From contig JAIUNJ010000007.1 of assembly GCA_020161855.1 (NCBI GenBank), positions 1-64,000 on the forward strand: DNA of 64,000 nucleotides, given 5' to 3'. Below are positions 1 through 18,772 of the stretch, piece after piece; position 1 is the first letter of the stretch; every line of letters begins with the position of its first letter. The position numbers and the translations under genes were made by a program. The notes under the pieces were generated by a model that worked only from the letters and a program-made list of their open reading frames with translations, did no database searches and had not been told where the DNA came from. This DNA is from Pseudomonadota bacterium. Lineage in GTDB: Bacteria > Pseudomonadota > Alphaproteobacteria > Rhizobiales > Aestuariivirgaceae.

Positions 1-2379
1 CAGGGCCTGTCGCTGCCGGCCGGCATGTCGTTCGGCACGTTCGAGGTCATCCAGGCCGCCGTGTTCACCGGCGTCATGGGCGCGGCGCTTCTGTCTGCGA
101 TCTGGCTGATCCGCGAGCGCGGCCGCATCGCGTCGGACAATCTCGACCTGCGCGGCCGCATCGCCGAACTGTCGACGGCGCTGCAGCGCTCCGAGGCTCT
201 GCTCAATCTCAAGGACCAGCGCCTCGTCGTCTGGATGAAGGACAACCCCAAGCCCGACATCGTCGGCTCGCTGAGCCTGACCGCCGGCGTGCCGGAGGAA
301 CGCGCCCAGTTCCTCGCCTTCGGCCGCTGGCTGAGCCCCCGCTCGGCGGCGGCGCTCGAGCGCGCCGTTTCCGATCTGCGCGGCGGCGGCAGGCCGTTCG
401 AGATGGTGGCCGAGACGCAGAACGGCGCGCTTCTGGAGGTTCATGGCCGTTCTTCGGCGGCGAACGCCGTCGTCCGTTTCCTGTCGCTGTCGGATGCGCA
501 GAAGGCGCATGGGCGGCTGAAGGCCGACCACGCCTTGCTGGCGAGCGAGAACGATACGATCCGCTCGCTGCTCGACGCTCTGCCGCTGCCGTTCTGGCTG
601 CGCGAGGACAATGGCCGGCTGCGCTGGGTCAACCGCGCTTTCGCCAGCGCGGTCGATGCGAGCGACGGCGAGGCTGCCCTGCGCGACGGCAAGGAACTGC
701 TACCGACGAATGCGCGCGACGCGATCGCGCAGCATCACCGCGGCCAGGCCGTCTACGAGCAGACCGTGTCGACGGTCGTCGGCGGCGACAGACGGCTGTT
801 TTCAGTCACCGATTTTTCCGCCGGCGAGCTCAGCGCCGGCATCGCCACCGACTCGACCGAGATCGAGACCGTGCGCGAGGAGCTGCGCAAGGTACAGCGC
901 AGCCATTCCGAGACGCTCGACCAGCTCACCACCGCGGTCGCCATCTTCGACGCGTCGGAAAAGCTGCGCTTCTACAATCAGGCGTTCCAGAAGCTGTGGG
1001 ACCTCGAAGCCGCTTTCCTCGAAAGCGCGCCGGCGAACGCGATGCTGCTCGACCGGCTGCGCACCGACGGCAAGATCGCCGAGCAGCCGGAATGGCGGCG
1101 CTGGAAGGACGGCGTGCTCGCCGCCTACCGCGCCGTGCAGACGCAGGAGGACTGGTGGCACCTGCCGGACGGCCGCACACTGCGCGTGCTCGCCACGCCG
1201 CATCCGACCGGCGGCCTGACCTGGATCTTCGAGAACCTGACCGAGAAGATGGACCTCGAGAGCCGCTACAACGCCGCCGTGCGCGTGCAGGGTGAGACGC
1301 TGGACAATCTGGCGGAAGGCGTCGCCGTGTTCGGGCCTGACGGACGGCTGCGGCTGTCGAACCCGGCCTTCGCGAAGCTCTGGGGCCTGTCGGACGACCT
1401 GGCGAAGGCCGGCACCCATATCGCCGCCATTCGCGGCGCGTGCGACCTCGTCGCGCGCACCAGCCCCTGGGCCGGCTTCGTCTCCGATGTCACCGGCTTC
1501 GCCGACGAGCGCCGCGACCGGCACGGCGAGACCGAGCTGAACGACGGCAACGTGCTGCGCCACGCGCTGATCCAGTTGCCGAACGGGCAGGTGATGATGA
1601 CCTTCGTCGACGTCACCGATACCGTGAACATGCAGCGCGCGCTGAAGGACAAGAACGAAGCGCTGCAGGCCGCCGACCAGTTGAAGAACGACTTCGTCCA
1701 GCACGTGTCCTACGAACTGCGCTCGCCGCTGACCAATATCATCGGCTTCGCCGAGCTGATGGGTCTGCCCGACACCGGGCCGCTGACGCCGAAGCAGCGC
1801 GATTACCTCAACCATATCGGCTCGTCCTCGGCGGTGCTGCTCACCATCGTCAACGACATCCTCGACCTCGCCACCGTCGACGCCGGCATCATGGAGCTCG
1901 ACATCGGCGAGATCGATGTCGACCAGATCGTCAAGCAGTCGGTGGAGCTGGTGGCCGAGCGCGTGCGCGAGCATGCGCTCTCGATCGAGACCGATCTGTC
2001 GGCCGCGCCGCAGCGCATGGCGGCCGACGAGAACCGGCTGCGGCAGGTGCTGTTCAACCTGCTCAGCAATGCGGTGAACTATGCGCCCGACGGCAGCACG
2101 ATCACCATCGCCTGCAAGGGCCTGCCCGGCGCGGTGGAATTCTCCGTGCGCGACGAAGGTCCGGGCATTCCACCCGAGGTGCTGGACACGGTCTACCGGC
2201 GTTTCGAATCGCGGACCAATGGCGGCCGCAGGCGCGGCGCGGGCCTCGGCCTGTCGATCGTGAAAAGCTTCGTCGAGCTGCACGGCGGCGAGGTGGTGAT
2301 CGAGACCACGCCCGGCAAGGGAACACTGGTCACCTGCCGCTTCCCGACCGCGACGGCCATTCGCCCGGCGGCGGAATAG
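1..2379 (+). CDS. divL: DivL-like PAS sensor kinase with Tyr in place of the phospho-accepting His (5' partial)
   Basis: The frame is open from base 1, so the true start probably lies left of the window; the first ATG is at 25 (784 aa from there). An N-terminal membrane segment (about residues 8-30 from that ATG) is followed by a coiled linker, several PAS-like domains (about 180-540), a dimerisation/acceptor helix and a C-terminal HATPase domain with an N box (RLRQVLFNLLSNAVNYAP), a G1 box (DEGPGIP) and a G2 box (GAGLGLSIVKS). The acceptor helix reads HVSYELRSPL where ordinary kinases have SHELRTPL, so Y563 replaces the histidine. That substitution is the hallmark of DivL, which in Caulobacter works through CckA in cell-cycle control. 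The next gene is a tsaE start, which I recall as a usual neighbour. The role is inferred from family. This gene looks G+C-richer by eye than the rest of the window and may come from the other side of the 2.5-kb junction. Confidence 0.82.
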   Translation, partial: QGLSLPAGMSFGTFEVIQAAVFTGVMGAALLSAIWLIRERGRIASDNLDLRGRIAELSTALQRSEALLNLKDQRLVVWMKDNPKPDIVGSLSLTAGVPEERAQFLAFGRWLSPRSAAALERAVSDLRGGGRPFEMVAETQNGALLEVHGRSSAANAVVRFLSLSDAQKAHGRLKADHALLASENDTIRSLLDALPLPFWLREDNGRLRWVNRAFASAVDASDGEAALRDGKELLPTNARDAIAQHHRGQAVYEQTVSTVVGGDRRLFSVTDFSAGELSAGIATDSTEIETVREELRKVQRSHSETLDQLTTAVAIFDASEKLRFYNQAFQKLWDLEAAFLESAPANAMLLDRLRTDGKIAEQPEWRRWKDGVLAAYRAVQTQEDWWHLPDGRTLRVLATPHPTGGLTWIFENLTEKMDLESRYNAAVRVQGETLDNLAEGVAVFGPDGRLRLSNPAFAKLWGLSDDLAKAGTHIAAIRGACDLVARTSPWAGFVSDVTGFADERRDRHGETELNDGNVLRHALIQLPNGQVMMTFVDVTDTVNMQRALKDKNEALQAADQLKNDFVQHVSYELRSPLTNIIGFAELMGLPDTGPLTPKQRDYLNHIGSSSAVLLTIVNDILDLATVDAGIMELDIGEIDVDQIVKQSVELVAERVREHALSIETDLSAAPQRMAADENRLRQVLFNLLSNAVNYAPDGSTITIACKGLPGAVEFSVRDEGPGIPPEVLDTVYRRFESRTNGGRRRGAGLGLSIVKSFVELHGGEVVIETTPGKGTLVTCRFPTATAIRPAAE

Positions 2380-2385
2380 CATAGT

Positions 2386-2535
2386 ATGGACGAGATTTCC
2401 GTCGCGCTGGCAGACGAGGCGGCGACCACGCGGCTCGGCGCCGATCTGGCGGCCGCGGCGAAACCCGGCGATCTTTTCGCGCTGCACGGCGACCTCGGCG
2501 CGGGCAAGACGACGCTGGCGCGCGGCTTCATCCGC
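2386..2535 (+). pseudogene. tsaE: 5' fragment of tsaE (tRNA t6A biosynthesis ATPase)
   Basis: The first 50 codons match TsaE, the ATPase that helps TsaB/TsaD make the t6A modification of tRNA. The Walker A loop is intact (GDLGAGKTTLARGF), but the frame then changes identity at residue 50. Everything after FIR, including the conserved PTFTLV-type segment, Walker B and the rest of the roughly 150-aa family length, is absent. TsaE is normally essential, so an organism with only this copy should not live. The fragment should therefore be read as a broken gene or an assembly edge. It starts 6 bases after the divL stop, as in an operon. Confidence 0.8.
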
Positions 2536-2538
2536 GTT
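2524..2538 (+). other. Chimeric junction between tsaE and an M32 carboxypeptidase gene
   Basis: The single open frame 2386-2988 joins the N-terminus of TsaE to the C-terminus of an M32 peptidase with no stop or frameshift. The residues at the seam, GFIRVDADEV, can be read as the end of the TsaE segment (ARGFIR) and as the usual M32 stretch (FIRVDADEVTYP). Both parents could therefore share about 9-12 identical bases here. Short shared sequence is what a k-mer assembly misjoin or a microhomology deletion would leave. Base composition also appears to drop across the seam. Confidence 0.7.
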
Positions 2539-2988
2539 GATGCCGACGAGGTGACCTATCCCATGCACGTGATCCTGCGTTTCGAGATGGAGCAGGAGAT
2601 CATCAGTGGGCGGATGAAAGCGGCAGATATCCCGGAAGCATGGGATGCCAAGATGCGCGCCTATCTGGGGCTGTCGACCATCGACAACATGAAGGATGGC
2701 CCGATGCAGGACGTGCACTGGCCGGGCGGCGCCTTTGGCTATTTCCCGAGCTACACGCTGGGGGCACTGCTGGCGGCCCAGCAATGGGCGGCGATCCGGC
2801 GGGTGCATCCATCCGTCGACGACGACCTGCGCAAGGGCGATTTCGCGGCACTCAACGATTGGCGCCGCAAGAACATCTGGGAGAAGGCGTCGACGCTCTC
2901 GACCCCCGATCTCATCCGTGCCGCAACGGGCGAGGAACTCTCGGCCAAGGCCTTCATTTCGCATCTCCGGAAGCGTTACACCGGATAA
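2526..2988 (+). pseudogene. 3' fragment of M32 family (Taq-type) metallocarboxypeptidase
   Basis: From residue 48 of the fused frame onward the protein is the last third of an M32 carboxypeptidase. Recognisable segments are VDADEVTYPMHVILRFEME, DVHWPGGAFGYFPSYTLGAL and a C-terminus ending LRKRYTG. Full-length family members are about 500 aa; here only about 153 residues remain. The HEXXH zinc-binding motif, which lies upstream of this segment, is missing, so the product cannot be a working peptidase. It has no start signal of its own, because translation would enter from the tsaE start at 2386. It may be the edge of an intact gene in the true genome. Confidence 0.82.
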
Positions 2989-3018
2989 GCCTTTGATCCT
3001 GAATAGTGAATTTAATGC

Positions 3019-3047
3019 TTGACAGGCGCGCGGTGTTTCACTAGATT
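3019..3047 (+). promoter_or_regulatory. Sigma70-type promoter upstream of the PLP decarboxylase gene
   Basis: TTGACA at 3019-3024, a 17-base spacer, and TAGATT at 3042-3047. It lies in the 244-base gap between the M32 remnant and the decarboxylase start, leaving a leader of roughly 180 bases. No other feature was seen in that gap. The boxes are strong; the long leader is the main doubt. Confidence 0.55.
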
Positions 3048-3232
3048 TGTGGACAATCCAGAACCGCGCCCGGATTTCCGCCAGCAATAGTCCTGCAAGC
3101 CCAAGAGGACGACGTGGCGGGGGCCCTGCGCCTTCGGGATCAACTTTCACTTCAGGTGGCCTATCGAAGCGCTCCCTCGACGCCAGCCCCGGGTTTCCCT
3201 AGGCTGTCACTGCGGGTTCGCCGGAGGTTTGC

Positions 3233-4648
3233 ATGACACCTTACGAAATCAGGCGTCTCTTCACGATTGCGCATGAACGGGCCGTGCGTTTCCGGACCGA
3301 GCGTGACCTCTGGCCCCAGTCGCCGCGCCAGAACTACGCGGCCTGCCGTGCCGACTTCGACGCCGCCCTGCCGGAAGACCCGGTGCCGCCCGAAGAGGTG
3401 ATTGCCGAACTCGCCGACAGGGCCGAACGTGGCCTGCAGATGTCGACGGGTCCGCGCTTCTTCGCCTGGGTCATCGGCAGTTCCCATCCCGTGGGCGTTG
3501 CCGCCGACATGATGGTCAGTGCATGGGGGCAGAATACCGGCAACCATCAGGCCGCTCCCTCGGCCTCTGCCGCCGAAACGGTGACGGCAAAATGGCTACT
3601 TGAGCTTCTGCATCTGCCGGGCCAGGCCTCGGTGGGTTTCGTGACGGGTGCCACGGTCGCCAACATGGTCTGCCTGGCTGCGGCGCGCGGTGAGGTGCTG
3701 CGCAGGGCCGGGTGGGATGCTGACTCACAGGGCCTGTTCGGCGCACCGCCGGTGAGCGTGCTGATCGGAGACGATGCACATACCACGGTGTTCTCGGCCT
3801 TGCAGTTTCTCGGCCTCGGACATGACCGCGTGGTGCGTGTTGCGACCGACGCGCAAGGCGCGATTGTGCCGGCAGCCTTTGCCTCGGCGCTGGCGGAGGT
3901 GAGCGGTCCTTCGATCGTCATCCTGCAGGCGGGGCAGATCAACACGGGTGCCTGCGATGCCTTCGCCACGCTGATCCCGCTGGCGCATGGCAAGGGCGCC
4001 TGGGTTCATGTCGATGGTGCCTTTGGCCTGTGGGCGAGGGCCAATCCCGGCACTTTCGCGCTGACGGAAGGCATGGAGCAGGCGGACAGCTGGGCGACCG
4101 ATGGCCACAAATGGCTGCAGACGCCCTACGACAGCGGCTTTGCCATCGTGAAGGACGAAGTGGCGCATCGCCGGGCCATGACCATTGCCGCAAGCTACCT
4201 CCCGATGACGGCGGAGGGGGAGCGCGACCCCACGCATTACGTGCCGGAACTTTCACGGCGGGCGCGGGGCTTTCCGGCCTGGGCCATGATCAAGGCGCTG
4301 GGACGCAGCGGCATTGCAGAGATGGTCAACCGCCACTGCACGGTCGCCCGCAGCATGGCACAGGCACTGGCACGGGAACCGGGCGTGGCTGTTCTCAACG
4401 ACGTGGTGATGAACCAGGCCATCATCCGCTTCGGCGCGGACAAGGACGTGGCCGAAGGTGACGCCATCACCCAGAAGACCATCGCCCGCATCCAGCAGGA
4501 CGGCGAATGCTTCGCCGGGGGTGCCCGCTGGCGTGGGCAGCAGGTGATGCGCCTCTCGGTGATCGGCTTCGACACGGACGAGGCCGAGGCCGAGCGAAGT
4601 GTTGCGGCAATGCTGCGCGCCTACCGCAACGTGCGTCAATCCGGTTGA
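3233..4648 (+). CDS. Group II PLP-dependent amino acid decarboxylase family protein
   Basis: A 471-aa pyridoxal-phosphate enzyme of the aromatic-amino-acid/glutamate decarboxylase superfamily. The PLP lysine is K293 in ATDGHKWLQTPYDSG. Upstream segments fit the fold: a TGGATVAN-like cofactor loop (FVTGATVANMVCLA) and WVHVDGAFG, whose Asp contacts the pyridine nitrogen. The start is chosen at ATG 3233 because GGAGG sits at 3223-3227. The gene stands alone, and its stop is 3 bases from the convergent copA stop. The substrate cannot be told from the sequence; tyrosine, tryptophan, DOPA or another amino acid are all possible. It is soluble, without a signal peptide. Confidence 0.85.
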   Translation: MTPYEIRRLFTIAHERAVRFRTERDLWPQSPRQNYAACRADFDAALPEDPVPPEEVIAELADRAERGLQMSTGPRFFAWVIGSSHPVGVAADMMVSAWGQNTGNHQAAPSASAAETVTAKWLLELLHLPGQASVGFVTGATVANMVCLAAARGEVLRRAGWDADSQGLFGAPPVSVLIGDDAHTTVFSALQFLGLGHDRVVRVATDAQGAIVPAAFASALAEVSGPSIVILQAGQINTGACDAFATLIPLAHGKGAWVHVDGAFGLWARANPGTFALTEGMEQADSWATDGHKWLQTPYDSGFAIVKDEVAHRRAMTIAASYLPMTAEGERDPTHYVPELSRRARGFPAWAMIKALGRSGIAEMVNRHCTVARSMAQALAREPGVAVLNDVVMNQAIIRFGADKDVAEGDAITQKTIARIQQDGECFAGGARWRGQQVMRLSVIGFDTDEAEAERSVAAMLRAYRNVRQSG

Positions 4649-4651
4649 GCG

Positions 4652-7006
4652 CTAGATCCTGGTGCGCCGCAGCCGCAGCGCATTGGCGATGACGCTGACC
4701 GAGGACAAGGACATGGCCGCGGCGGCAATCACCGGCGACAGCAGGATGCCGAAGACCGGATAGAGAATGCCGGCGGCCACCGGCACCCCGGCAGCGTTGT
4801 AGACAAAGGCAAAGAACAGGTTCTGGCGGATGTTGCGAAGCGTGGCGCGCGACAGGTTGCGGGCCCGGACGATGCCCATCAAATCGCCCTTGAGCAAGGT
4901 GATCTGGGCGCTTTCCATGGCAACGTCAGTGCCCGTGCCCATGGCGATGCCGACATCGGCTGCGGCGAGGGCAGGCGCGTCATTCACGCCGTCGCCCGCC
5001 ATGGCAACCTTGCGGCCCTCCGCCTTGAGACGCTGGACAATGGCGGCCTTCTGATCGGGAAGCACTTCGGCCTCGACGGCGGCAATGCCCAGGCGGCGGG
5101 CGATGGCATCCGCCGTCGTCCGGTTGTCGCCGGTGAGCATGATGACATCGACCTTCTCGGCACGCAGGGCCGCCAGTGCTTCAGGTGTTGTCGCCTTAAC
5201 GGGATCGGAGATGGCAATGACACCGGCCACCTTGCCGTTGATGGCGACGAAGATGGCTGTAGCACCGTCGCGGCGGGCGGCCTCGGCGGCAGCGGCAAGC
5301 TCGTCAGTGGCAATGGAAAGTTCTGCGAGGAACTTCACATTGCCAATGGCGAGGCGCTTGCGCTCGACCATGCCGATGGCGCCTTTGCCGGTGGGTGAAT
5401 CGAAGCCCATCACCTTGGCCAAGGCGAGGCCCCGGGCCCTGGCGGCGGAGACGATGGCAGCGGCGAGCGGGTGCTCACTCGCCTGCTCGACGCTGGCGGC
5501 GAGGCGCAGCATTTCGCCTTCGTCCTGGCCCGGAAGCACGGTGAGGCCCGTGACCGAGGGCTTTCCTTCGGTCAACGTACCGGTCTTGTCGATGACCAGC
5601 GTGTCGATCGCGGCCATATGCTCCAGCGCCTCGGCATTCTTGATGAGGACGCCGGCCTGGGCACCGCGGCCGACACCGACCATGATCGACATGGGCGTCG
5701 CAAGTCCGAGGGCGCAGGGACAGGCAATGATGAGGACGGCAACGGCCGCGACCAGGCCATAGGTGAGGCGCGGCTCCGGCCCCCAGATCGCCCAGGCAGC
5801 AAAGGCAGCAAGGGCGACGAGGAGAACGAGTGGCACGAACCAGCCCGAGACCTGATCGGCAAGGCGCTGGATGGGGGCACGGCTGCGCTGCGCCTCGGCC
5901 ACCATCTGCACAATGCGGGCGAGAACCGTGTCGCGCCCCACCTTGTCGGCCGTCATGACGAAACCGCCGGAGGCATTGAGCGTGCCGCCGATAACGCGGT
6001 CGCCCTGTGCCTTGGAGACGGGAAGCGATTCACCCGTCACCATCGACTCGTCGACGACACTTTGCCCTTCCGCGACGATGCCATCGACAGGCACTTGCTC
6101 GCCCGGCCGCACACGCAGGCGCTGGCCCTTGACGATCTCCTCCAGCGGCACGTCGTGCTCGCTGCCGTCATCGGCAATGAGACGGCCTGTCTTGGGTGCA
6201 AGTTTCAGCAACGCCTTGATGGCATTCGAGGTGTTGTCACGGGCGCGGAGCTCCAGCACCTGGCCAAGCAGGACCAGCACAGTGATGACGGCGGCGGCCT
6301 CGAAATAGACGGGCACCGAACCGTCATGCCCGCGAAAGGCGGGCGGAAAGAGGCCGGGGGCAAAGGTGGCCAGCACGCTGTAAGCCCAGGCGACGCCAGT
6401 GCCCAAGGCAATGAGCGTGAACATGTTGAGATTGCGGGTGACGAGCGATTGCCAGCCGCGCACGAAAAAGGGCCAGCCGGCCCAGAGCACGACAGGCGTT
6501 GCCAGCGCAAACTGGATGAGGTTCGAAGTGGCGGGCATCACGAGGCTGTGAATGTTGAAGAGATGGCCGCCCATCTCGAGCAGGAACACCGGCAACGCCA
6601 GGGCGAGGCCGATCCAGAAGCGCCGCGTCATGTCGGCGAGTTCATGGTTGGGGCCTGACTCCGCGGTGACGACGAGCGGTTCCAGCGCCATGCCGCAGAT
6701 CGGGCAGGTGCCCGGTCCATTCTGACGCACTTCGGGGTGCATGGGGCAGGTGTAGATTGCATCCGTGGGCAGAGCCTCTTTCGCTGCGGCGATGAGGGCG
6801 GGATCGAGGTAGCGCTCGGCATGGCCCACAAACTTGCTGCGGCAGCCGGCGCCGCAGAAATAGTAGGTTTTGCCAGCATGCGTGGCCTTGTGCGGTGTCG
6901 CGTGCGGATCGACGCTCATGCCGCAGACCGGATCGATCTCGGTTTTTCCAGTGTGGCCATGGCCATGGCCGTGGGCGTCGTGGTGATGGTGGTCGTGGCC
7001 GCTCAT
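4652..7006 (-). CDS. copA: Copper-exporting P1B-type ATPase with His-rich tail, YHS and HMBD metal-binding domains
   Basis: A 784-aa heavy-metal pump. In order: a His-rich N-terminus ([15 protein letters not shown]), a YHS domain ([10 protein letters not shown] then YYFCGAGC), a heavy-metal-binding segment ([24 protein letters not shown]), about eight membrane helices, an actuator domain (TGES), the CPC ion motif at C429-P430-C431, the phosphorylation motif DKTGTLTEG with D473, and a [10 protein letters not shown] hinge. The classical GMTCxxC HMA domain is not present. CPC points to Cu(+) (or Ag) export to the periplasm. Start ATG 7006 is preferred over upstream in-frame codons because a GAGGAG ribosome site precedes it and the CueR promoter at 7038-7068 lies directly upstream. 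It is divergent from cueR. Confidence 0.93.
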
Positions 7007-7037
7007 GACGGTCTCCTCAAGTCTGCACTTGACGCTC

Positions 7038-7068
7038 GCCATAGACCTTCCCATCATTGGAAGGTCAA
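7038..7068 (-). promoter_or_regulatory. CueR-type copA promoter with overlapping dyad operator (19-bp spacer)
   Basis: Reading toward copA: -35 TTGACC (plus-strand 7063-7068), a 19-base spacer, and -10 TATGGC (7038-7043). Inside the spacer is a perfect inverted repeat, GACCTTCC (7044-7051), 7 bases, GGAAGGTC (7059-7066). MerR-family activators act on exactly this over-long 19-base spacing, untwisting the DNA when metal binds, and the ACCTTCC-N7-GGAAGGT dyad is the known CueR site type. The same operator sits just upstream of cueR, so autoregulation is likely. Confidence 0.9.
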
Positions 7069-7081
7069 GAGGAGTTTCCCC

Positions 7082-7483
7082 ATGAATATCGGCAGTGCCG
7101 CCAAGGCCTCCGGCGTCTCGGCCAAGATGATCCGCTACTACGAGGAGATCGCCCTGCTGCCCGCGGCGAAGCGCACGGCAAGCGGCTACCGCGATTATGG
7201 GCAAAGCGATGTGCACCGGCTGCAGTTCATTCACCGGGCCCGTGACCTGGGTTTCTCGGTCGAGCGCATCCGGCTGCTGCTGCAACTCTGGAACGACCGC
7301 AAGCGGCCAAGCCGCGAGGTGAAGAGCATCGCCACGGCGCATATTGCGGAAGTCGAAGACCAGATCCGGCGTATGCAAGGCTTGCTCAAGACCCTGCGGC
7401 ACCTGGCGGATGCCTGCGACGGCGATGGACGGCCGCACTGCCCGATTCTCGAGGATCTGGCTGAACAGGGGCGGGCACATTGA
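7082..7483 (+). CDS. cueR: CueR/HmrR copper-responsive MerR-family regulator
   Basis: A 133-aa regulator. The N-terminal winged helix ([21 protein letters not shown]) is followed by a dimerisation helix and a C-terminal metal loop CDGDGRPHC, a C-X7-C spacing that matches the Cu(+)-binding pair of CueR. The protein should activate copA when cytosolic Cu(+) rises. Start ATG 7082 is supported by GAGGAG at 7069-7074; longer frames begin inside copA and are rejected. It is divergently arranged with copA across a 75-base gap that contains the operator. Confidence 0.92.
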
Positions 7484-7576
7484 CGGCCCGCTGCCGCCTT
7501 GTTCAGGCCTTGTTCAGCCGCTGAGGTCGATCACAGGCTCATCGTTCGACTCGTTCACGGGAACAGGGAGAGTGGC

Positions 7577-7771
7577 ATGAAGACGCGTTTTCGACTGTGG
7601 GCAGCGCTGGCCTGGCTTCTGGCCATGTTCAACTTCTCGCTGGCCAGCGCCAGCGACGCCAGCGACCGCGATGAACTCATTTCCGCGCAGGACAGCAGCG
7701 AAGTTGCTGACAGCGTCGACACTCCGGCACCCAAGGGCATGACCCGCCACCGCCATTCCGACCTGTTCTGA
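7577..7771 (+). CDS. Small secreted protein of unknown function (64 aa)
   Basis: Begins MKTRFRLWAALAWLLAMF, a good signal peptide with likely cleavage near ASA-S (about residue 25). That would leave a mature peptide of about 40 residues, acidic in the middle (SDRDELISAQDSSEV) and ending with a short basic, His-containing tail (TRHRHSDLF). AGGGAG precedes ATG 7577. I do not recognise a family. Its position next to cueR/copA and the two tail histidines could suggest a periplasmic metal link, but that is speculation. There is no cysteine. Confidence 0.5.
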   Translation: MKTRFRLWAALAWLLAMFNFSLASASDASDRDELISAQDSSEVADSVDTPAPKGMTRHRHSDLF

Positions 7772-7840
7772 AGGAGGCTGCCGCAGGGCGCTCTCCCGGG
7801 CTAGACTTGCGCGACATGCGAGTCCCGCCGGGAGATGCCG

Positions 7841-8422
7841 ATGACAACGCCGCAGCCGCCAAAGGCAAATGAAGCCGAACCTGCCTCCGCCGTGAAACGC
7901 CACGCCGTCAGCGACAGCGGTTTCAAGTCGCTCTCCCAGGAGGAGCGCCGGAGCCTGGCCCAGCTCATCCGCCGGGCAAGAGTCTCGCGCAATGTGCATT
8001 CCGATCTTGAAGGGCAGCGCAGCCTCGGCGAGCGCCTCTCCGACGCCGTGGCAGCCTTCGGCGGCTCATGGACCTTCATCATCATCTTTTCAGGGGTGCT
8101 GCTGTCCTGGTGCCTGCTCAATACAGTGGTGCTCGCGGCAGGGGCCTTCGATCCCTATCCCTATGTGTTCCTCAACCTCGTGCTTTCCACCATCGCGGCG
8201 GTGCAGGCGCCGATCATCATGATGTCGCAGAACCGGCAGGCATCGCGCGACCGCGTGGTGCAGCAGCACGATTATGAAGTAAACCTGAAGGCCGAGATCG
8301 AGATCATGGCGCTGCACGAGAAGATGGACGAGTTGCGGCTGAAACAGTTCGGCGAGCTTCTCACCATCCAGCAGCGCCAGATCGAAATGCTGACCCACCT
8401 GATCGAAGGACGAAAGACATGA
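7841..8422 (+). CDS. DUF1003 family membrane protein
   Basis: A roughly 193-aa protein matching the DUF1003 pattern: a charged cytosolic N-terminus, the typical LGERLSDAVAAFGGSWTFI entry to two adjacent membrane helices (about residues 75-130), a short loop with DPYPYVFLNLVLS, the signature AAVQAPIIMMSQNRQ, and a long amphipathic C-terminal helix. The family function is unknown. ATG 7841 is preferred over ATG 7835 because GGGAG at 7830-7834 is at the right distance only for the later codon. The stop overlaps the next start (ATGA at 8419-8422), so the two are probably translated together. Confidence 0.85.
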   Translation: MTTPQPPKANEAEPASAVKRHAVSDSGFKSLSQEERRSLAQLIRRARVSRNVHSDLEGQRSLGERLSDAVAAFGGSWTFIIIFSGVLLSWCLLNTVVLAAGAFDPYPYVFLNLVLSTIAAVQAPIIMMSQNRQASRDRVVQQHDYEVNLKAEIEIMALHEKMDELRLKQFGELLTIQQRQIEMLTHLIEGRKT

Positions 8423-8946
8423 AGGCCGTGGACGTGCTGCGCGGGTTTGCGCTTGCTGTGGCGTTGCTCATGCTTGCTGGCTGCGTGCTGCAGGCCTCGC
8501 CGCCACTCTTCGCAGAGAAGCAGGGTGAGATGGTATTCAAGGGCCAGGGCACGCAGTTTGTGAGCTACTCGCTGAATCGCGACACAAAGGCTTGGGAAAA
8601 GGACGACGAGCCCATGGTCTTCAATGCGGTGGGCAAACACTACGAGTCCCCGACCAAGTCCGGTGTCACATCCCTGTCCTTCATTGCCCTGCAGAAGGGC
8701 TGGTGGGTGGTACAGGGCGCAGAGGATGGTGGCCCCTCGGGCTACATGCTGGCGCAGCGGCAGGGCAAAGCGATGCTGCTCTATCCGCTCATGTGCACTA
8801 ATCTCAAGAAGGTGCAGGCGATTGCACCGAAAGTCAGATTTGAAGGCGATGATTGCTTTGCCGGGAAGGACTTCGGGCTGGCTACTTTCAGAGCCATGAT
8901 CAAATCGCTGCCGCCGGCGGCCCTGAAGATCGAGCCTGCTGCCTAG
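8419..8946 (+). CDS. Predicted lipoprotein of unknown function
   Basis: A 175-aa protein with a lipoprotein signal: hydrophobic residues 10-20 followed by lipobox LAGC, with acylation at C22. The mature part has aromatic-rich beta-like segments (SLSFIALQKGWWVVQG; GYMLAQRQGKAMLLYP) and two further cysteines (about residues 133 and 146). Family not recognised. It is coupled to the DUF1003 gene by a 4-base overlap, so the pair probably acts at the envelope. The residue after the lipid Cys is Val, which does not suggest inner-membrane retention by the Asp+2 rule. Confidence 0.65.
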   Translation: MKAVDVLRGFALAVALLMLAGCVLQASPPLFAEKQGEMVFKGQGTQFVSYSLNRDTKAWEKDDEPMVFNAVGKHYESPTKSGVTSLSFIALQKGWWVVQGAEDGGPSGYMLAQRQGKAMLLYPLMCTNLKKVQAIAPKVRFEGDDCFAGKDFGLATFRAMIKSLPPAALKIEPAA

Positions 8947-9008
8947 CCGCCATTTACGCCGGTTGCTGGCTGGGGTAGCTTGCGCCGCCTCAAAACCGGA
9001 CACATGCC

Positions 9009-9428
9009 ATGAGCAGCAGCCAGAGCCATGCCGACAGGTTGCGAAAGGCCTATCAGGTCTGGAATGACACCAAGGGTGGCAACCTCGACATGTGGCTGGA
9101 CCTTATGTCCCCCACAGTGCGCTACAAGTCCGTGGGCGGCGGTCCCAAGGTCGATGCCTTCGCCTCGCCGCGCGACAGCAAGGAGGAGGTGCGCGAGCAC
9201 CTGACCGCCCTCGTCAAGAACTGGGAACTGATCTATTTCACCGTGCTCGACACGGTCTCGGAGGGCGAGAAGGTTGTCGTGCTCTCGGAAATGGCCTGGC
9301 GCAACCGCGCCACCGGCAAGAGGATCGACACGCCGCATATCGGCCTCTTCACCTTCGAGAACGGCAAGGTGGTCACGTATTATGAAACCTTCGACACGCA
9401 CAGAATGATCCAGGCGGCGACGCCGTGA
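9009..9428 (+). CDS. SnoaL-like / NTF2-fold protein
   Basis: A 139-aa single-domain protein with the NTF2-like cone pattern: an N-terminal helix (AYQVWNDTKGGNLDMWLDLMSP), then a strand-rich half ending in GLFTFENGKVVTYYETFDTHRM. This fold covers small isomerases, hydrolases and binding proteins; the substrate is not predictable here. There is no signal peptide. It is an isolated gene between the lipoprotein and the Excalibur gene, in the same direction. Confidence 0.75.
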   Translation: MSSSQSHADRLRKAYQVWNDTKGGNLDMWLDLMSPTVRYKSVGGGPKVDAFASPRDSKEEVREHLTALVKNWELIYFTVLDTVSEGEKVVVLSEMAWRNRATGKRIDTPHIGLFTFENGKVVTYYETFDTHRMIQAATP

Positions 9429-9459
9429 AGGCGCGGCCGGTCTACGCCGGGCTGCGCTA

Positions 9460-9867
9460 ATGGGCATGAGATGTCTTCTCGTTGTTGTGCTTCTCGGGCT
9501 GGCAGGCGCGGATACCATTGCTTTCGGTCAATCCTGCGGAGGCAAACGCTATTGCCGCGAAATGACATCCTGTGCCGAGGCGCGCTTTTATCTGGAGACA
9601 TGCGGTCTCTCGCAGTTGGACGGTGATGGTGACGGCTCGCCATGCGAGAGTCTATGCGGAGACGGCGGCAACAGAAGGTCGTCGCAGTCCTCAAAGGGCG
9701 GCAATGCAACGCCACTGCTTGAGACAGCGCCTCTCGAATGTGGCGCGAAATCAAGATGCAGGGAAATGACGAGCTGCGCCGAGGCGACGTTCTACCTCAA
9801 GACCTGCGGGGTCAGCAGTCTCGACGGCAACAATGATGGCATCGCCTGCAACGCGTTGTGCAAGTAG
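9460..9867 (+). CDS. Secreted protein with two Excalibur calcium-binding-type repeats
   Basis: A 135-aa protein with a signal peptide (about 1-23) and two copies of the same Cys-rich unit. Each contains CREMTSCAEA, then FYLxTCGxSxLDG, then an Asp-rich loop (DGDGDGSPCESLC; DGNNDGIACNALC). These are Excalibur domains, whose DxDxDG loop resembles an EF hand. In other bacteria they commonly sit at the C-terminus of secreted nucleases; here the nuclease is missing and only the repeats remain, joined by a Ser/Gly/Asn-rich linker of about 25 residues. It is convergent with the RACo gene, stop to stop 14 bases. Confidence 0.78.
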   Translation: MGMRCLLVVVLLGLAGADTIAFGQSCGGKRYCREMTSCAEARFYLETCGLSQLDGDGDGSPCESLCGDGGNRRSSQSSKGGNATPLLETAPLECGAKSRCREMTSCAEATFYLKTCGVSSLDGNNDGIACNALCK

Positions 9868-9881
9868 CGCGCCGAGGAAAA

Positions 9882-11924
9882 TCAGCCGCGCCGCCGTCTC
9901 CGCCGCTCGCCGCCTTCATCATCAGCCATCACCACCGTCTTGATGGGGGGCAGGGTGAGAGCCTTCTTCAGGTTGGCGAAGTCCGCGGTCTTGTGCGGCA
10001 GGGCCATGGCCTCGACGAAATGCTGCTGGAACTTGGGTTCGACCGCCGTCTCGATCTTCTCGATGCGGCGCACGACGCTTTCGATCTCGTCGCGGGCCTT
10101 CTTGTTGAGAAGCGCGATGCGCGCACCCGTGCCCGCAGCATTGCCGGCTGACTGCACGCGCGACAGGTCACAATCGGGAATGAGGCCGAGCACCATGGCA
10201 TATTTCATGTCAATGTGGCTGCCGAAGGCGCCCGCAAGCCTGATCTTCGACACCTCGTCGATGTTGAGCTTGTCCATGAGCAGGCGCACACCGGCATAGA
10301 GCGCCGCCTTGGCCATCTGGATGGCGCGGACATCATTCTGCGTGATGCGGATGAGTGGCTCGTTGCCATCGACGCGCGGCTGGCGGATGACATAGTTGAA
10401 GGTGCGCTTGTAGGGCTCGATGCGGCTTGAACGCTCGGCCATGGCACCGTCGACAAGCCCATCCTGGTTGATGATGCCGGCGAGATACATCTCGGCAATC
10501 GCCTCGATGATGCCCGAGCCGCAGATGCCGGTAACGCCGGTGCTGGAAATCTCTTCCTCGAAGCCGTCTTCGTCGCTCCACTTGTCGGAGCCGATGACCT
10601 TGTAGCGGGGCTCGAGGGTTTCCGGGTTGATGCGGATGCGCTCGATGGCGCCGGGCGCGGCGCGCTGGCCCGAGGAGATCTGGGCCCCTTCGAAGGCAGG
10701 GCCTGTGGGTGAGGAGCAGGCCAGCAGCCGGGCCCGCGAGCCCAGCACGATCTCGGCGTTGGTGCCGACGTCGACGCAGAGCATATATTCGTCCTGCTCG
10801 TGCGGCGCCTCGGACAGGACCACGGCGGCGGCATCTGCCCCCACATGCCCGGCAATGCAGGGCAGCACATAAGCCCAGGCGCCGGGATTGAGGCGGAACT
10901 CCATCTCGCGGGCGGGGAAGGTCAACGGGAGGCCCGTTGCGAGTGCAAAGGGCGCGCCGCCGAGCTCGGTCGGGTCGATGCCGAGGAAGAGGTGGTGCAT
11001 CACGGGATTGCCGACCAGCACCACTTCCAGAATATCGGTGACCGGCACCTGCGCCTGCTTGGCCACTTCTTCGGCCAGTTGCTGCAGGGCGGCACGGATG
11101 GCGGAGGTCATCTCCTTCTCACCACCGGGATTCATCATCACATAGGACACGCGGCTCATGAGATCTTCGCCGAAGCGGATCTGCGGATTCATGAGGCCTG
11201 CGGAGGCGGCGACTTCGCCCGTCGAGAGATTGGTGAGGTGGGCCGCAATGGTGGTCGAGCCGACGTCGATGGCCAAGCCGAAGGTCTTGTCGTGGAAGCC
11301 GGGCCAGATGGCCGAGAGACGGTTGCCGCCGCCGGGCGCGCGCGAATAGATGGCGCAGGTGATCTTCCACTCGCCCTTGCGCAGGGCTTTCTGCAACTCG
11401 GCGATGATGGAAAGATCGCAGGAGACGTTGTCGAGGCTCCATTGCGTGCGCAGCGCATTGTAGACCCGTTCCAGATCGGAGGACGGGTTGTGCATGTCCG
11501 GTTCCTCCACTTCGATGAAGTAGAGCTTCGTTGCCGGATCAAGCGCGATCACGCGGGTGTCGGCCTCCTTGCGGACGACCTGCTTGTGAACCTGGCTTTC
11601 CGGCGGCACGTCGATGACGAGATCGCCCTGAATCTGCGTCTGGCAGGACAGGCGGCGCCCGGCGGGCAGGCCGCGGATGCGATCGTAGCGCTCCTCGACC
11701 TTGGTGACGCCCGAGACATGGGCCACGGCCGAGGTGATGCCATGCTTGGCAAACTCGCCTTCGCCGATGCTGATCTGGCAGCGGCCGCAGATGGCGCGCC
11801 CGCCGCAGACGGAGTCGATATCGACGCCAAGGCTCCGGGCGGCCTGAAGCACAGGCGTGCCAACGGGAAAGCGCCCGCGCTTGCCGGAGGGAGTGAAGAC
11901 GATGAGCGGGTTCTGTTCGGTCAT
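9882..11924 (-). CDS. RACo-type corrinoid activation ATPase (2Fe-2S plus ASKHA domains)
   Basis: A 680-aa protein. The N-terminus is a plant-type ferredoxin domain with C40, C46, C49 and C94 (CGGRAICGRC, later SCQTQ). A linker follows, then a DUF4445/ASKHA ATPase with phosphate-binding loops FGLAIDVGSTT and LCVDVGTNAEIVLG and a glycine-rich GVTGICGSGIIEAIAEMY. Members reduce inactive Co(II) corrinoid proteins back to Co(I), using ATP, in methyl-transfer pathways. A methyltetrahydrofolate:corrinoid methyltransferase lies 3.4 kb away on the same strand, which supports that role. No corrinoid protein is present in the window. The C-terminus is Arg-rich (GGERRRRRRG). Confidence 0.85.
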   Translation of the reverse strand: MTEQNPLIVFTPSGKRGRFPVGTPVLQAARSLGVDIDSVCGGRAICGRCQISIGEGEFAKHGITSAVAHVSGVTKVEERYDRIRGLPAGRRLSCQTQIQGDLVIDVPPESQVHKQVVRKEADTRVIALDPATKLYFIEVEEPDMHNPSSDLERVYNALRTQWSLDNVSCDLSIIAELQKALRKGEWKITCAIYSRAPGGGNRLSAIWPGFHDKTFGLAIDVGSTTIAAHLTNLSTGEVAASAGLMNPQIRFGEDLMSRVSYVMMNPGGEKEMTSAIRAALQQLAEEVAKQAQVPVTDILEVVLVGNPVMHHLFLGIDPTELGGAPFALATGLPLTFPAREMEFRLNPGAWAYVLPCIAGHVGADAAAVVLSEAPHEQDEYMLCVDVGTNAEIVLGSRARLLACSSPTGPAFEGAQISSGQRAAPGAIERIRINPETLEPRYKVIGSDKWSDEDGFEEEISSTGVTGICGSGIIEAIAEMYLAGIINQDGLVDGAMAERSSRIEPYKRTFNYVIRQPRVDGNEPLIRITQNDVRAIQMAKAALYAGVRLLMDKLNIDEVSKIRLAGAFGSHIDMKYAMVLGLIPDCDLSRVQSAGNAAGTGARIALLNKKARDEIESVVRRIEKIETAVEPKFQQHFVEAMALPHKTADFANLKKALTLPPIKTVVMADDEGGERRRRRRG

Positions 11925-12090
11925 GACCGCCGCTTATAGCCAAAAGGCCATTTCCCGGGCGAGCCAAATGCGACAGGTTTTCGGTGTGGTCCCGGCGCGC
12001 TGCAACCGCCGCGGCGTAGACAGCAGGAGCGGAGCAGGCTGATTTTAGGCTGCATTGCCAGCCATCCGAACGCCTATTTGGAGCCAGCCC

Positions 12091-12591
12091 ATGACGACCA
12101 CAAAGACCTTCTTCATTGCTGCGGCGCTGGCCGCCGTCTCGGCCTTCGCACCCGCCATGGCGGATGAGGCCCAGCTTGCCCGGGGCAAGTATCTGACCGG
12201 CATTGCCGGCTGCAACGACTGCCACACCCCAGGCTATTTCCTCGGCAAACCCGATGCTTCCCGTTTCCTGGGCGGCTCGGAGGTGGGTTTCGAGATCCCG
12301 GGGCTTGGCGTTTTCTACGGCCCGAACCTGACGCCCGACAAGGAGACGGGGCTCGGTGACTGGACTGTGGAACAGATCGTCACGGCCATGACCACGGGTG
12401 TGAGACCGGATGGCCGCCATCTGGTTCCGGTCATGCCCTGGCCGAGCTTTGCCAGTCTCACGCCCGAGGATGCACAGGCCATCGCGGCCTATCTCAAATC
12501 ACTTCCGCCAGTCCAGAACAAGGTTCCGGGTCCCTTCGGCGCAGCCGAGAAGCCGACAGGCTTCGTGATGAAGATCATTCCGCCGAACTGA
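12091..12591 (+). CDS. Secreted monohaem cytochrome c
   Basis: A 166-aa protein with a signal peptide (cleavage near AMA-D, about residue 24) and one haem motif, C41-N-D-C44-H45. The probable axial Met is M115 in PVMPWPSF. The intervening pattern NLTPDKETGLGDWT and GVRPDGRH resembles cytochrome subunits of periplasmic alcohol or aldehyde dehydrogenases, but no partner dehydrogenase is adjacent. Start ATG 12091 is preferred over an in-frame start at 12055 because it opens the signal peptide. It converges on the cupin gene with one base between stops. Confidence 0.85.
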   Translation: MTTTKTFFIAAALAAVSAFAPAMADEAQLARGKYLTGIAGCNDCHTPGYFLGKPDASRFLGGSEVGFEIPGLGVFYGPNLTPDKETGLGDWTVEQIVTAMTTGVRPDGRHLVPVMPWPSFASLTPEDAQAIAAYLKSLPPVQNKVPGPFGAAEKPTGFVMKIIPPN

Positions 12592-12592
12592 T

Positions 12593-13042
12593 TCAGGGAC
12601 GGATGAAACCCGCGACTTTGGCGTCCTTGCCGAGTTGCGCGAGATCATCGGCGGTTGGAAGCTGCGGGCGGTCCCGCTCGACATTGACCAGACAGAGGAA
12701 GCCAAGCGGTGCATCGGCGGCAGCACGGAACTGATGCCAGGACAGGCTTGGCACATGGATCAGGTCATGCTCGCCGATGTCGTGGATCTTGCCATCGACC
12801 AGGCATTGGCCCCGCCCGCGCAGGATCAAGACATTGTGCAGATGTTCATGACGCTCGAGCGTCGAGTGCCCGCCGGGCTTCACTTCGAAATAGCGCCATT
12901 GGGCGGGCAGCTTCTCGACACCGTCAAAGAGGATCTGACGGGTCACGTCCTTGTAAGGGCCGCCTTCCTTGTAGGCGAGGACATCGACACCTTCCCAGCC
13001 GAAGTCGCTGAAGTGACGAACGAGTTTGCTTTCATCGGTCAT
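12593..13042 (-). CDS. Cupin-domain protein, coupled to the RuBisCO-like gene
   Basis: A 149-aa single cupin. Motif 1 reads GGHSTLERHEHLHNVLILRG (two or three metal-ligand His) and motif 2 is GEHDLIHVPSLSWHQFRA. It is probably a small metal-binding enzyme (isomerase or dioxygenase type) or a sugar-acid binder. Its ATG overlaps the RuBisCO-like stop (13039-13042), so the two products are made together and may act in one pathway. No signal peptide. Substrate unknown. Confidence 0.8.
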   Translation of the reverse strand: MTDESKLVRHFSDFGWEGVDVLAYKEGGPYKDVTRQILFDGVEKLPAQWRYFEVKPGGHSTLERHEHLHNVLILRGRGQCLVDGKIHDIGEHDLIHVPSLSWHQFRAAADAPLGFLCLVNVERDRPQLPTADDLAQLGKDAKVAGFIRP

Positions 13043-14178
13043 GGCTTGCGTTCCTTCATGGCGTTGTCGAGCCCCGTGACGAAGGCCCGGGCGCTGACTT
13101 CCTGATCGGGTGAATAGCGGAGGAGGGCGCCGCCGATGAGAAGGGCGGTATCCACACCGAAAGCGTCGATCATGGTGCCGATCTTCTCGATCGTCATGCC
13201 GCCTGCGGGTGAGGGGAAGGCGCCGTTGAGCCCACCCCAGGGTTTGCGCAGATCATCCGCCAGTTCAACGCACTCCTCGCGCGAGAAGGTAAAGCGGCCG
13301 CCGAAGTTGGGGAAGACGGAGATGTCGGCCCCGAAGAGGCGGAAGAGCTTGCCGAGCAGCACGGCCGGCGTCATGCCATGGCGCGGGTCGTGGAAATGTG
13401 TGCCCGAAAAGGTCGGGTGCGTCATGACGGCGAGATCATACTTGCGGGCCAGATAGAAGCCGGTGTCGGGGCCGATCAGGAAGGGTGGCACGAGGACGCC
13501 GAAGCAGCCCTGTTCCTTGGCGAAGGCCGCTTGCGCTTCAACCTGGTCGAAGCGGCCCGCGAGCATGGGATAGTAGTGAGTGACATTACCGCTCTTTGCG
13601 TTGCCTTCGCGGATGGCCTCGGCGATGCGGGCGATGCGTTCCCTGAAGGGATGGAAATGCTGGTCGATCAGGCCATGATCGTCCTTGATGACATCAAGTC
13701 CGCCACGCGCATAACCGCCACACATGGCGGCAAGCTCGGGTGAAGAAAGGCCAAGCGGCTTGATCGCGGTGGTGGCGAGCGGCCTACCATGGACATTCAG
13801 GGCCTTGCGAATGCCCTCGATGCCATAGCGGGGACCACCGAAGGCCTTGAGCTGGTCGGGGGTGAAGCTGATGTCGACGATCTTGATGCCGCGCCGGATC
13901 GAGATGTTCCCGAAGAGGACGTTCAAGAGGCCGGGAATCTCGTTGTTGGTGATATCGACGCGATAGCTGATGAGAACGTCGTAGTCGGTTGGCGTTCCCG
14001 GGCGCTCGGTGATCTTTTCAATGATTCCGACAATGCCCTTTTCCCAATGGCCCGCGGGCACAGCGTCGGCCGGGATCTCAACGGTCTGCTCAATGCAGAT
14101 ATCCTTGGCATGGGCCTCGATGGACCGGTCATCGTCCGGCGTGACGCGATAGAGGACAGTGAAACGAGGTGCAGTCAT
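13039..14178 (-). CDS. RuBisCO-like protein (form IV type, large-subunit family)
   Basis: A 379-aa member of the RuBisCO large-subunit superfamily. The barrel region keeps K140 (AIKPLGLS, equivalent to catalytic K175) and K165/D167 in GGLDVIKDDH (the carbamylated-Lys motif), plus H254 and GK at 276-277. It differs from true RuBisCO: the Glu of KDDE is His168, the residue after H254 is Pro instead of Arg, and the SGG phosphate loop reads PAGG. CO2 fixation on RuBP is therefore unlikely. Known RuBisCO-like proteins are enolases, isomerases or decarboxylases in sulfur salvage or sugar-acid breakdown. Alternative starts at 14187 and 14214 exist, and none has a clear ribosome site. It is the first gene of a two-gene operon with the cupin and divergent from the desaturase-family gene. 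Confidence 0.88.
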   Translation of the reverse strand: MTAPRFTVLYRVTPDDDRSIEAHAKDICIEQTVEIPADAVPAGHWEKGIVGIIEKITERPGTPTDYDVLISYRVDITNNEIPGLLNVLFGNISIRRGIKIVDISFTPDQLKAFGGPRYGIEGIRKALNVHGRPLATTAIKPLGLSSPELAAMCGGYARGGLDVIKDDHGLIDQHFHPFRERIARIAEAIREGNAKSGNVTHYYPMLAGRFDQVEAQAAFAKEQGCFGVLVPPFLIGPDTGFYLARKYDLAVMTHPTFSGTHFHDPRHGMTPAVLLGKLFRLFGADISVFPNFGGRFTFSREECVELADDLRKPWGGLNGAFPSPAGGMTIEKIGTMIDAFGVDTALLIGGALLRYSPDQEVSARAFVTGLDNAMKERKP

Positions 14179-14291
14179 GATGCTCATGCCGTTCGTGAAG
14201 GGACGGCATGCCAATCGCCATTTTTGCCGCCTGAGTCCAGATTGATTTCAGCGGGGAATGCCGCCTATGTTCCCGTGTGGGAGGAACTGAC

Positions 14292-15299
14292 ATGGATGAA
14301 AGCATCTATGGCAAGACCGAGCGCGGGCAATGGGCACCAGCCAAGCCCGTGAGCTATGGGCCCGCCTTTGCATGGCCACCGCGGCCCGCAGCATTTCTCA
14401 AATGGTTCTTCGGCATTCCCGGCTTCCTGTTTCCATGGAACGTGCCCTATGCGCTGCTGGGCATCGCCATCTGGGCCTACGCCACGCCATCGCTCGCGAC
14501 GATGGCCACGCTTGAACCGGGATGGGTGCTGTTCGTGCTGGCGCGGAATGTGGTGCTGGCTGTGCTCGTCTATGGCGCCTGGCACCTCTGGTTCTACGTC
14601 TGGCGGAAGCAGGGCACGAACTTCAAATACAACAAGCAGTGGCCGAAGCCGGAGTCTGCGGTCTTCCTGTTTCGCAACCAGACCTACGATAACATGTTCC
14701 ACACGCTGGTGAGCGGCGTACCGATCTGGACGGCCTATGAGGTGCTGCTGTTGTGGGCCTATGCCAATGGCTGGGCACCTATGATCGGCTTTGGCGAACA
14801 TCCGGTTGCCTTCGTGGCGCTGTTCTTCCTCGTGGCGCTGATCCATGAGGTCGGGTTCTATTTCGCACACCGGCTGCTGCACTTCCCGCTGCTCTATCGC
14901 TGGGCACACCACTTGCACCATCGCAACACCAATCCCGGGCCATGGTCAGGCCTGTCGATGCATCCAATCGAACACGCGATCTATTTTGCCACGATCCTGC
15001 TGTTCTTCGTGATCCCGGCGCACCCTATCCACATGATCAATCTGGCATCACGTCTCGGGCTTGCGCCTTCCGAAGGCCACACCGGCTTTGACCGGCTGGA
15101 GCTTGGCGACAAGGCTTCAATGGACGTGTCGTATTACGCCCACTACCTGCACCACAAATATTTCGAGGTGAACTATTCCGACGGCATGGTGCCGCTCGAC
15201 AAGTGGTTCGGCTCATTCCACGACGGTACGCCCGAGGCCCACGAGCGCATGAAACAGCGCCGCGCCCGGATGGGCAACAAGCTGGCCCAGAACGGGTAG
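14292..15299 (+). CDS. Sterol desaturase / fatty acid hydroxylase family membrane enzyme
   Basis: A roughly 335-aa integral membrane protein with the diiron His clusters of this superfamily: HEVGFYFAHRLLH, HHLHHR and HYLHHK. Several hydrophobic segments lie between about 35 and 260. Members add or remove hydrogen on lipid substrates using O2 and diiron; the substrate (sterol, hopanoid, carotenoid or fatty acid) is not evident. ATG 14292 has GGGAGGA at 14279-14285 and is preferred over an in-frame GTG at 14277. It is divergent from the RuBisCO-like operon and convergent with the methyltransferase, one base between stops. Confidence 0.85.
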   Translation: MDESIYGKTERGQWAPAKPVSYGPAFAWPPRPAAFLKWFFGIPGFLFPWNVPYALLGIAIWAYATPSLATMATLEPGWVLFVLARNVVLAVLVYGAWHLWFYVWRKQGTNFKYNKQWPKPESAVFLFRNQTYDNMFHTLVSGVPIWTAYEVLLLWAYANGWAPMIGFGEHPVAFVALFFLVALIHEVGFYFAHRLLHFPLLYRWAHHLHHRNTNPGPWSGLSMHPIEHAIYFATILLFFVIPAHPIHMINLASRLGLAPSEGHTGFDRLELGDKASMDVSYYAHYLHHKYFEVNYSDGMVPLDKWFGSFHDGTPEAHERMKQRRARMGNKLAQNG

Positions 15300-15300
15300 G

Positions 15301-16257
15301 TTACCTGCGGCGGCGGGATTCGCGGGCAGCGCGGCGGGCAGCAATGTCCTCGGCGGAGGGGGCTGCTTCACCAGCCGGGCGATTGGCCGAAGGCGCCGGG
15401 GCGAGATCGCGGAAACGGTTGTTCCAGAAGCGGCAATGCGCATCCGTACCATTGAGAACGTTGGCGCCGTAAATGGCGTGCATGTCCTCGTCGTGCATCG
15501 GATTCATGATCGCCGATGTCATGCCGTGCGAGGCGGCCATGGCGAGGAAGTAGCCGGTGAGGGCGCGGCGGTTCGGCATGCCGAAGGAGATGTTCGAGGC
15601 GCCGCAGGTGGTGTTGACCTTCAGTTCCTCGCGCAGGCGGCGTACCAGGCGGAAGACCTGCTGGCCGGCGGTGCCCATGGCACCAATCGGCATGACGAGT
15701 GGATCGACAACGATGTCGTGGCTCTTGATGCCGTAGTCGGCAGCGCGCTGGACGATCTTCCTGGCCACCTCGAAGCGCACATCCGGATCTTCCGAAATGC
15801 CGGTTTCGTCGTTGGAGATGGCAACCACCGGGACGTTGTACTTGGCGACGAGCGGAAGGATCGCCTCAAGCTTTTCTTCCTCGCCGGTGACGGAGTTCAC
15901 GAGCGGGCGGCCCTTGACCGTCTCGAGACCGGCCTTGAGGGCGGATGTGACAGAGCTGTCGATGCAGATCGGCAGGTCGGAGACCGACATGACGATCTCA
16001 AGCGTCTGGCGCATCAGCGGCGGCTCGGACTCGTTCGGGTTGACCGCGGTGACACCTGCGTTAACATCGAGGATATGTGCGCCGGCCTCGGTCTGGGCCA
16101 GGGCATCCTTGATCACGGTTTCAAAATTGCCGGCCTGCATTTCGGCGGCGAGCTTCTTGCGGCCCGTGGGGTTGATGCGCTCACCAATGACCGTGAAGGG
16201 ACGGTCAAAGCCGATGATATGCTCGCGGGTGGCGGAGGCAACGAGTGTGTGTGTCAT
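15301..16257 (-). CDS. Methyltetrahydrofolate:corrinoid methyltransferase
   Basis: A 318-aa pterin-binding (DHPS-like TIM barrel) protein. Supporting segments are FTVIGERINPTGRKKL, GAHILDVNAGV with the pterin-binding Asp/Asn, LPICIDSS and ASNISFGMPNRR. The family moves a methyl group between a corrinoid protein and tetrahydrofolate. With the RACo-type activator at 9.9-11.9 kb it forms part of a corrinoid one-carbon module. About 55 C-terminal residues are low-complexity Ala/Arg ending ESRRRR, beyond the usual family end. Translation is coupled to the upstream PF13769 gene by ATGA at 16254-16257. Confidence 0.88.
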   Translation of the reverse strand: MTHTLVASATREHIIGFDRPFTVIGERINPTGRKKLAAEMQAGNFETVIKDALAQTEAGAHILDVNAGVTAVNPNESEPPLMRQTLEIVMSVSDLPICIDSSVTSALKAGLETVKGRPLVNSVTGEEEKLEAILPLVAKYNVPVVAISNDETGISEDPDVRFEVARKIVQRAADYGIKSHDIVVDPLVMPIGAMGTAGQQVFRLVRRLREELKVNTTCGASNISFGMPNRRALTGYFLAMAASHGMTSAIMNPMHDEDMHAIYGANVLNGTDAHCRFWNNRFRDLAPAPSANRPAGEAAPSAEDIAARRAARESRRRR

Positions 16258-16556: not shown

Positions 16557-16596
16557 GGCCAGCGCCTATGCCATGGCCCAAAAACGACTTCTAGTG

Positions 16597-16618: not shown

Positions 16619-16645
16619 GGACCCGCTACCCCAGGCGCAGAAGGT

Positions 16646-18696: not shown

Positions 18697-18707
18697 GGTT
18701 GCGGTGT

Positions 18708-18736: not shown

Positions 18737-18772
18737 AATTCGCAGAGTGAGCCACGCTCTGCGGACCTCAAG

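Follow-up and report, generated by a model that had tools for sequence, protein, structure and literature searches.

Among described systems, the closest to the DNA analysed here are the chimeric contigs of the GUNC paper (PMC8201837). Passages of that paper describe chimeric contigs as occurring in metagenome-assembled genomes by misassembly, which they call relatively rare compared with mis-binning. As in those contigs, fragments of different sources are found here in one contig. Unlike the wholly mis-binned contigs considered in the same passages, the case presented here concerns a short tip of one contig. The genome (G000; 19 contigs totalling 3,363,020 bases, completeness 91.94%) has a listed contamination of 0, which counts against a misjoin; according to those passages, a low listed value does not exclude chimeric contigs, as would be the case here. 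At the level of genes, the two systems for comparison are a TsaE-AmgK/APH protein encoded after a PAS histidine kinase gene, as observed on contig C7 of the same genome and, with the same type of architecture, in a Mesorhizobium sp. metagenome-assembled genome (locus L044), and the M32 carboxypeptidase (Taq type, PF02074). The literature matches listed contain, by their titles and abstract openings, no report of a TsaE-AmgK or other TsaE fusion.

The window, by which the whole stretch of 64,000 bases analysed here is meant, corresponds to C14:1-64000. Its first base is base 1 of contig C14, which the sequence-only reading of this DNA had not taken into account, and the seam discussed below is therefore about 2.5 kb from the contig end. 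When compared with the C7 and L044 loci, the window has the upstream kinase and the first 50 residues of the TsaE protein, but not the rest of TsaE or any of the AmgK/APH kinase domain, and M32 sequence is present instead. The features are as follows.

1 to 2534, no strand: foreign contig tip, assigned to the Mesorhizobium lineage by DNA identity and composition.
25 to 2379, plus strand: PAS/HisKA/HATPase histidine kinase, complete, 784 residues, assigned as foreign (Pfam PAS_7, HisKA, HATPase_c).
2386 to 2988, plus strand: TsaE-M32 hybrid open reading frame, 200 residues, a single open frame.
2386 to 2534, plus strand: 5' part of a Mesorhizobium-type tsaE(-amgK) gene that breaks off behind the P-loop (TsaE profile positions 2-41 of 128).
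2520 to 2537, no strand: seam zone; the identity to the L044 tsaE ends at 2534, and the exact runs shared with M32 loci begin at 2520-2530.
2524 to 2988, plus strand: last third of an M32 carboxypeptidase gene, assigned to the native lineage, with its 5' side cut (M32 profile positions 335-489).
2996 to 3125, no strand: intergenic repeat, nearly confined to G000 by sequence matches and taken to mark native DNA.
3233 to 4648, plus strand: pyridoxal-dependent decarboxylase (PF00282), used as the right-side control.

The description of 2386-2988 as one uninterrupted frame that starts as TsaE and continues as the last third of an M32 peptidase is confirmed by hmmscan. In the full 200-residue frame, the TsaE family (PF02367) matches residues 9-63 with an E-value of 3.6e-10, and when residues 1-49 are scanned alone, the match covers positions 2-41 of the 128 positions of the Pfam profile. 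The match passes the Pfam cut-off (26.6 bits) and scores 32.6 bits with TIGR00150, below the cut-off of 60.1. About two thirds of the domain, everything 3' of the P-loop, is missing, so that this half falls short of a complete P-loop ATPase domain, which spans about 128 positions. Peptidase_M32 (PF02074) matches residues 42-198 with an E-value of 5e-60, aligning to the last third of the family, up to its end (profile positions 334-489 of 489). Unlike M32 enzymes, with a domain of normally about 489 positions, the hybrid lacks the N-terminal two thirds and the HEXXH zinc site. In the M32 frame of contig C13 this motif is at residue 263, and the residue equivalent to the seam is near 344, hence downstream of it. 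Since TsaE is cut after the P-loop and the M32 HEXXH lies upstream of the seam, enzymatic activity is unlikely for both halves, in agreement with the earlier proposal that both are nonfunctional.

The two sides have different closest taxa: Mesorhizobium and family f23 on the left, and the organism's own genus on the right. The region 21-2534, from the kinase into tsaE, is 80.3% identical at the DNA level to L044 (contig C3_k141_12661), and the kinase, whose foreign status had not been recognized before, is 78% identical in its best amino acid segment to the same Mesorhizobium genome. In a scan of named genomes, which favours close relatives, 137 kinase relatives were found and 80 kept, with L044 as the best; 68 of the 80 have Mesorhizobium in their record title, and the remaining 12 are from Nitratireductor, from Chelativorans or from records whose names stop at a higher rank. 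When 397 genomes of the order were searched, all of the nine top-ranking places outside G000 itself belonged to family f23 (70-74% DNA identity, E = 0), and eight of these nine extend to 2522-2528 of the 2530-base query, while the best congener sampled, G017 (E = 2.6e-50), is far below them. Family f23 is very probably the family that holds Mesorhizobium, since two f23 loci match named Mesorhizobium records in their alignment figures (L126 and L123 are identical in these figures, as are L127 and L083). The organism of G000 and Mesorhizobium would then belong to the same order and to different families. Contig C14 thus has parts of different source lineages, Mesorhizobium on the left and its own genus on the right. 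Only one boundary of the foreign piece is visible, because on the other side it runs to the contig end.

The composition was compared using order-4 Markov log-odds, trained on native and Mesorhizobium DNA, with negative values on the Mesorhizobium side. The region 1-2385 scores -0.0296, and the lowest of the native 2.4-kb chunks scores +0.0055 (0 of 56 chunks as low). The first Mesorhizobium training set contained the homologous kinase, and in a control run with the kinase and tsaE-amgK cut out, the region scores -0.0234, the native minimum being +0.0046 (none of 52 chunks as low). When the native training excludes the C7 kinase of the same genome, that kinase scores -0.0004, which is under the native chunks and well above the left side of the window; the kinase gene type itself thus draws the score somewhat toward Mesorhizobium. 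All 600-base windows of 2701-6300 fall on the native side. In addition, the G+C content, earlier noted to seem higher on the left, is indeed 0.68 in 1-2385 and 0.72 in 2386-2530, versus 0.62 in 2530-2988.

Tip composition was also scored at both ends of 17 of the 19 contigs, all except C9 and C10. The first 900 bases of contig C5 are on the Mesorhizobium side (-0.0294). The tip of C13 (1-860) scores +0.0073; it is not Mesorhizobium-like, which counts against a misjoin. Among the other ends, the last 900 bases at the right end of C19 (L279; G+C 0.72) are slightly Mesorhizobium-like at -0.0140, and the last 900 bases at the right end of C14 are barely on the Mesorhizobium side at -0.0017.

Contig C7 carries the genome's own histidine kinase-tsaE-amgK locus, in which the kinase has 38% amino acid identity with the window kinase and is followed on its 3' side by an intact 508-residue TsaE plus AmgK/APH frame. 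The foreign piece at the tip of C14, as judged from these alignments, is the start of such a kinase-tsaE-amgK locus from another lineage. A full tsaE elsewhere in the assembly had been proposed, together with long reads across the seam, as support for a real fusion. The gene is present, but it does not show the fusion to be real, because the left side of the window belongs to another lineage.

The right side of the seam belongs, on the evidence of the M32 tail tree, the decarboxylase and the repeat, to the G000 genome, and for the M32 tail itself the assignment rests on the tree. In this tree, the C14 tail is the sister of G011, G006 and G032, with support values of 97/91 (41 rows) and 97/93 (25 rows), and it shares 76-77% amino acid identity with G006 and G032. 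The decarboxylase is nearest to that of G032 among the congeners (77% amino acid identity over query residues 1-468), and matches to it are found in 17 of the 37 genomes of the genus, G000 included. In G016 (C211:10075-11465; L186/L196) the decarboxylase is matched in two pieces with one stop in each, and this copy is possibly a pseudogene. The intergenic repeat is matched at 34 or more stretches of G000, a lower bound because 23 of the 45 candidates were scored, and among the other 36 congeners it is matched in six, in all of them by short or weak matches (best E-value 9.6e-8). It is about 120 bases long, consists of two blocks (about 3008-3063 and 3076-3120) and has copies on C1, C7, C8 and C12-C19. 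No Rfam family is found at the gathering score in 1-10000 of the window, the repeat included.

A full-length M32 frame is present on contig C13 (C13:338-1786; locus L006, C13:1-1822). The proposal that a full M32 gene might be found elsewhere is borne out in so far as this frame is full length, but the frame is a mosaic, with a C-terminal part that falls outside the native-lineage clade. The N-part (first 297 residues) is the sister of G006 and G032 (support 100/99, 79-80% amino acid identity), and its grouping with non-congeners is rejected (AU p = 0.0007). The C-part falls with G277, f6 and f23 (97/94), its immediate neighbour being G277 (90/80), and it is nearest to several families at 67-70%. 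Its placement inside the group of C14, G006, G011 and G032 is rejected (AU p = 0.0012); one clade of all congeners plus the C-part is not rejected (AU p = 0.19), and this counts against a misjoin. The groups of the AU tests were named after the first trees had been inspected. The C-part is a long branch with an unsure exact placement, and it may derive from another genus or from a congener that is more distant. Identity windows place the switch of partner between residues 301 and 340, and a two-segment change-point fit of the identity to G006, G032 and G024 gives a break at residue 429, such that the exact position of the switch is uncertain. The C13 frame had also been considered as an ordinary intact second copy, and this was dropped, given the different tree positions of its N- and C-parts and the switch of partner at about 301-340.

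M32 matches are found in 24 of the 37 genomes of the genus, six of which have two. In the five of these other than G000, the two matches are complementary pieces of one gene, with an overlap of at most 15 profile positions; two different M32 tails are found in G000 only among the 37 genomes. The similar tree positions of the C13 N-part and the C14 tail, and their 79-80% and 76-77% identities to G006 and G032, suggest that they are parts of one gene. The native M32 gene seems to be split over C13 (N-part) and C14 (C-part), both of which would have wrong tips, and the two contigs would be neighbours in the genome, an adjacency for which the trees are the basis. The gene order does not support this join: no kept open reading frame of 3203-20000 of the window has a partner in 15 congener M32 stretches, as obtained with a crude picker that kept the M32 frame itself in 12 of the 15 and dropped it in G010, G011 and G025. 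Of the 23 congeners in which M32 is matched, five (G009, G011, G023, G025 and G035) have the gene cut by a contig end, when about 2.4 would be expected by a rough hand estimate from rounded contig numbers; this comparison was not used as evidence.

Exact identity between the window and L044 at the seam covers 2512-2534, and the stretch GFIRVDADEV corresponds to residues 47-56 of the hybrid. The sequence-only reading proposed that a short identical stretch had joined the two parents. Such a shared stretch is plausible, because 22 M32 loci (21 of congeners plus that of C13) share 5-15 nt in register with the L044 tsaE, with 6-7 nt for the nearest congeners (G006, G011, G024 and G032). It is not proven, since the lengths in known relatives may not be those of the true parents. 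As found in the known relatives, 5-15 nt is too short to show a shared assembler word, which counts against a misjoin.

A pattern similar to that of C13 and C14 is suggested by alaS, for which a gene appears to be cut near one contig tip and a foreign copy to be present at another. C5:1-946 (L162) encodes a C-terminal piece of alaS, which is 81% identical to family f23 and, among the matches listed, 74% identical to the best congener; with the control training, this region scores -0.0208, on the Mesorhizobium side. The alaS of C15 (L172, C15:1226-3889) aligns to the C5 piece for 194 of 314 residues, breaks off after the KLEREL region and continues as an unrelated tail.

It is highly probable, as judged from these sequence comparisons, that the hybrid frame is an assembly misjoin at the tip of C14, that is, a chimeric contig end and not biology. 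This was also the simplest reading of the sequence in the earlier proposal, and it is the best supported one, with different closest taxa and a composition step on the two sides of a seam 2.5 kb from a contig end. It is favoured by the tip position, the split between lineages and the step in composition, as well as by the native locus on C7, the mosaic M32 of C13 and the similar C5 tip. About 2.53 kb of Mesorhizobium-like DNA, with a complete kinase and the first 50 codons of tsaE-amgK, would have been wrongly joined to C14 inside the M32 carboxypeptidase gene of another alphaproteobacterium of the same order. The native M32 gene would run from C13 (N-part, to about residue 300-340) into C14 (C-part, from about residue 344); the tip of C13 would also leave the native lineage within this gene, and both contig tips would have been extended with wrong sequence. 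The frame stays open because the break is in register at GFIR, a stretch compatible with both proteins. The joins were presumably made by the assembler, by a scaffolding step or in chimeric library molecules, not in the cell. In a variant counted within the misjoin, the M32 tail too would be foreign, derived from a congener, and native DNA would begin no earlier than the repeat near 2996. The C14 tail shares only 60% amino acid identity with the M32 that the genome carries on C13, and the first matched base of the repeat follows the M32 stop after just 7 bases (2989-2995), as this variant would allow; it is nevertheless very improbable, since the tail and the C13 N-part share their place in the tree, as sisters of G006/G032, at 76-77% and 79-80% amino acid identity.

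The sequence could also be the scar of a real event, in which Mesorhizobium DNA was taken up and recombined illegitimately into M32, generating an in-frame but useless hybrid gene. The frame that is open through the seam and the short in-register identity would agree with such an event, and the loss would be tolerable with the genome's own tsaE and another full-length M32 frame on C13. However, the foreign DNA runs to the contig end, so that a second boundary is not seen, a similar foreign piece is present at the C5 tip, and mosaicism also affects the other M32 frame, which lies at the tip of C13; two unrelated events would be needed in one native gene at two contig ends. We consider this scar improbable. 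A genuine recent transfer of Mesorhizobium-like DNA, with the hybrid kept as a relic beside the genome's own tsaE, likewise has little chance of being correct, as it requires these separate coincidences. It can also be imagined that the hybrid is a functional fusion in which the TsaE P-loop regulates a peptidase-derived domain, as the single open frame and the intact Walker A loop would permit. Everything past position 41 of the 128-position TsaE profile is nevertheless missing, as is the M32 HEXXH, and the halves are of different lineages. Moreover, when 1-3300 is used as the query against 61 genomes, none of the left-type matches listed extends past 2549 and none of the right-type ones begins before 2516, and apart from the window itself none of these covers both halves. 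The probability of a functional fusion is very close to nil. A cellular fusion gene, also considered, was ruled out, as both halves are incomplete and of different lineages.

If the misjoin is correct, the first 2.5 kb of C14, with its apparently complete sensor kinase, should not be attributed to the organism of G000, and the C5 tip, the C13 M32 and the end of the C15 alaS are also suspect. Left uncorrected, these regions would enter automatic annotation as a spurious fusion protein, a spurious kinase and a mosaic M32 peptidase.
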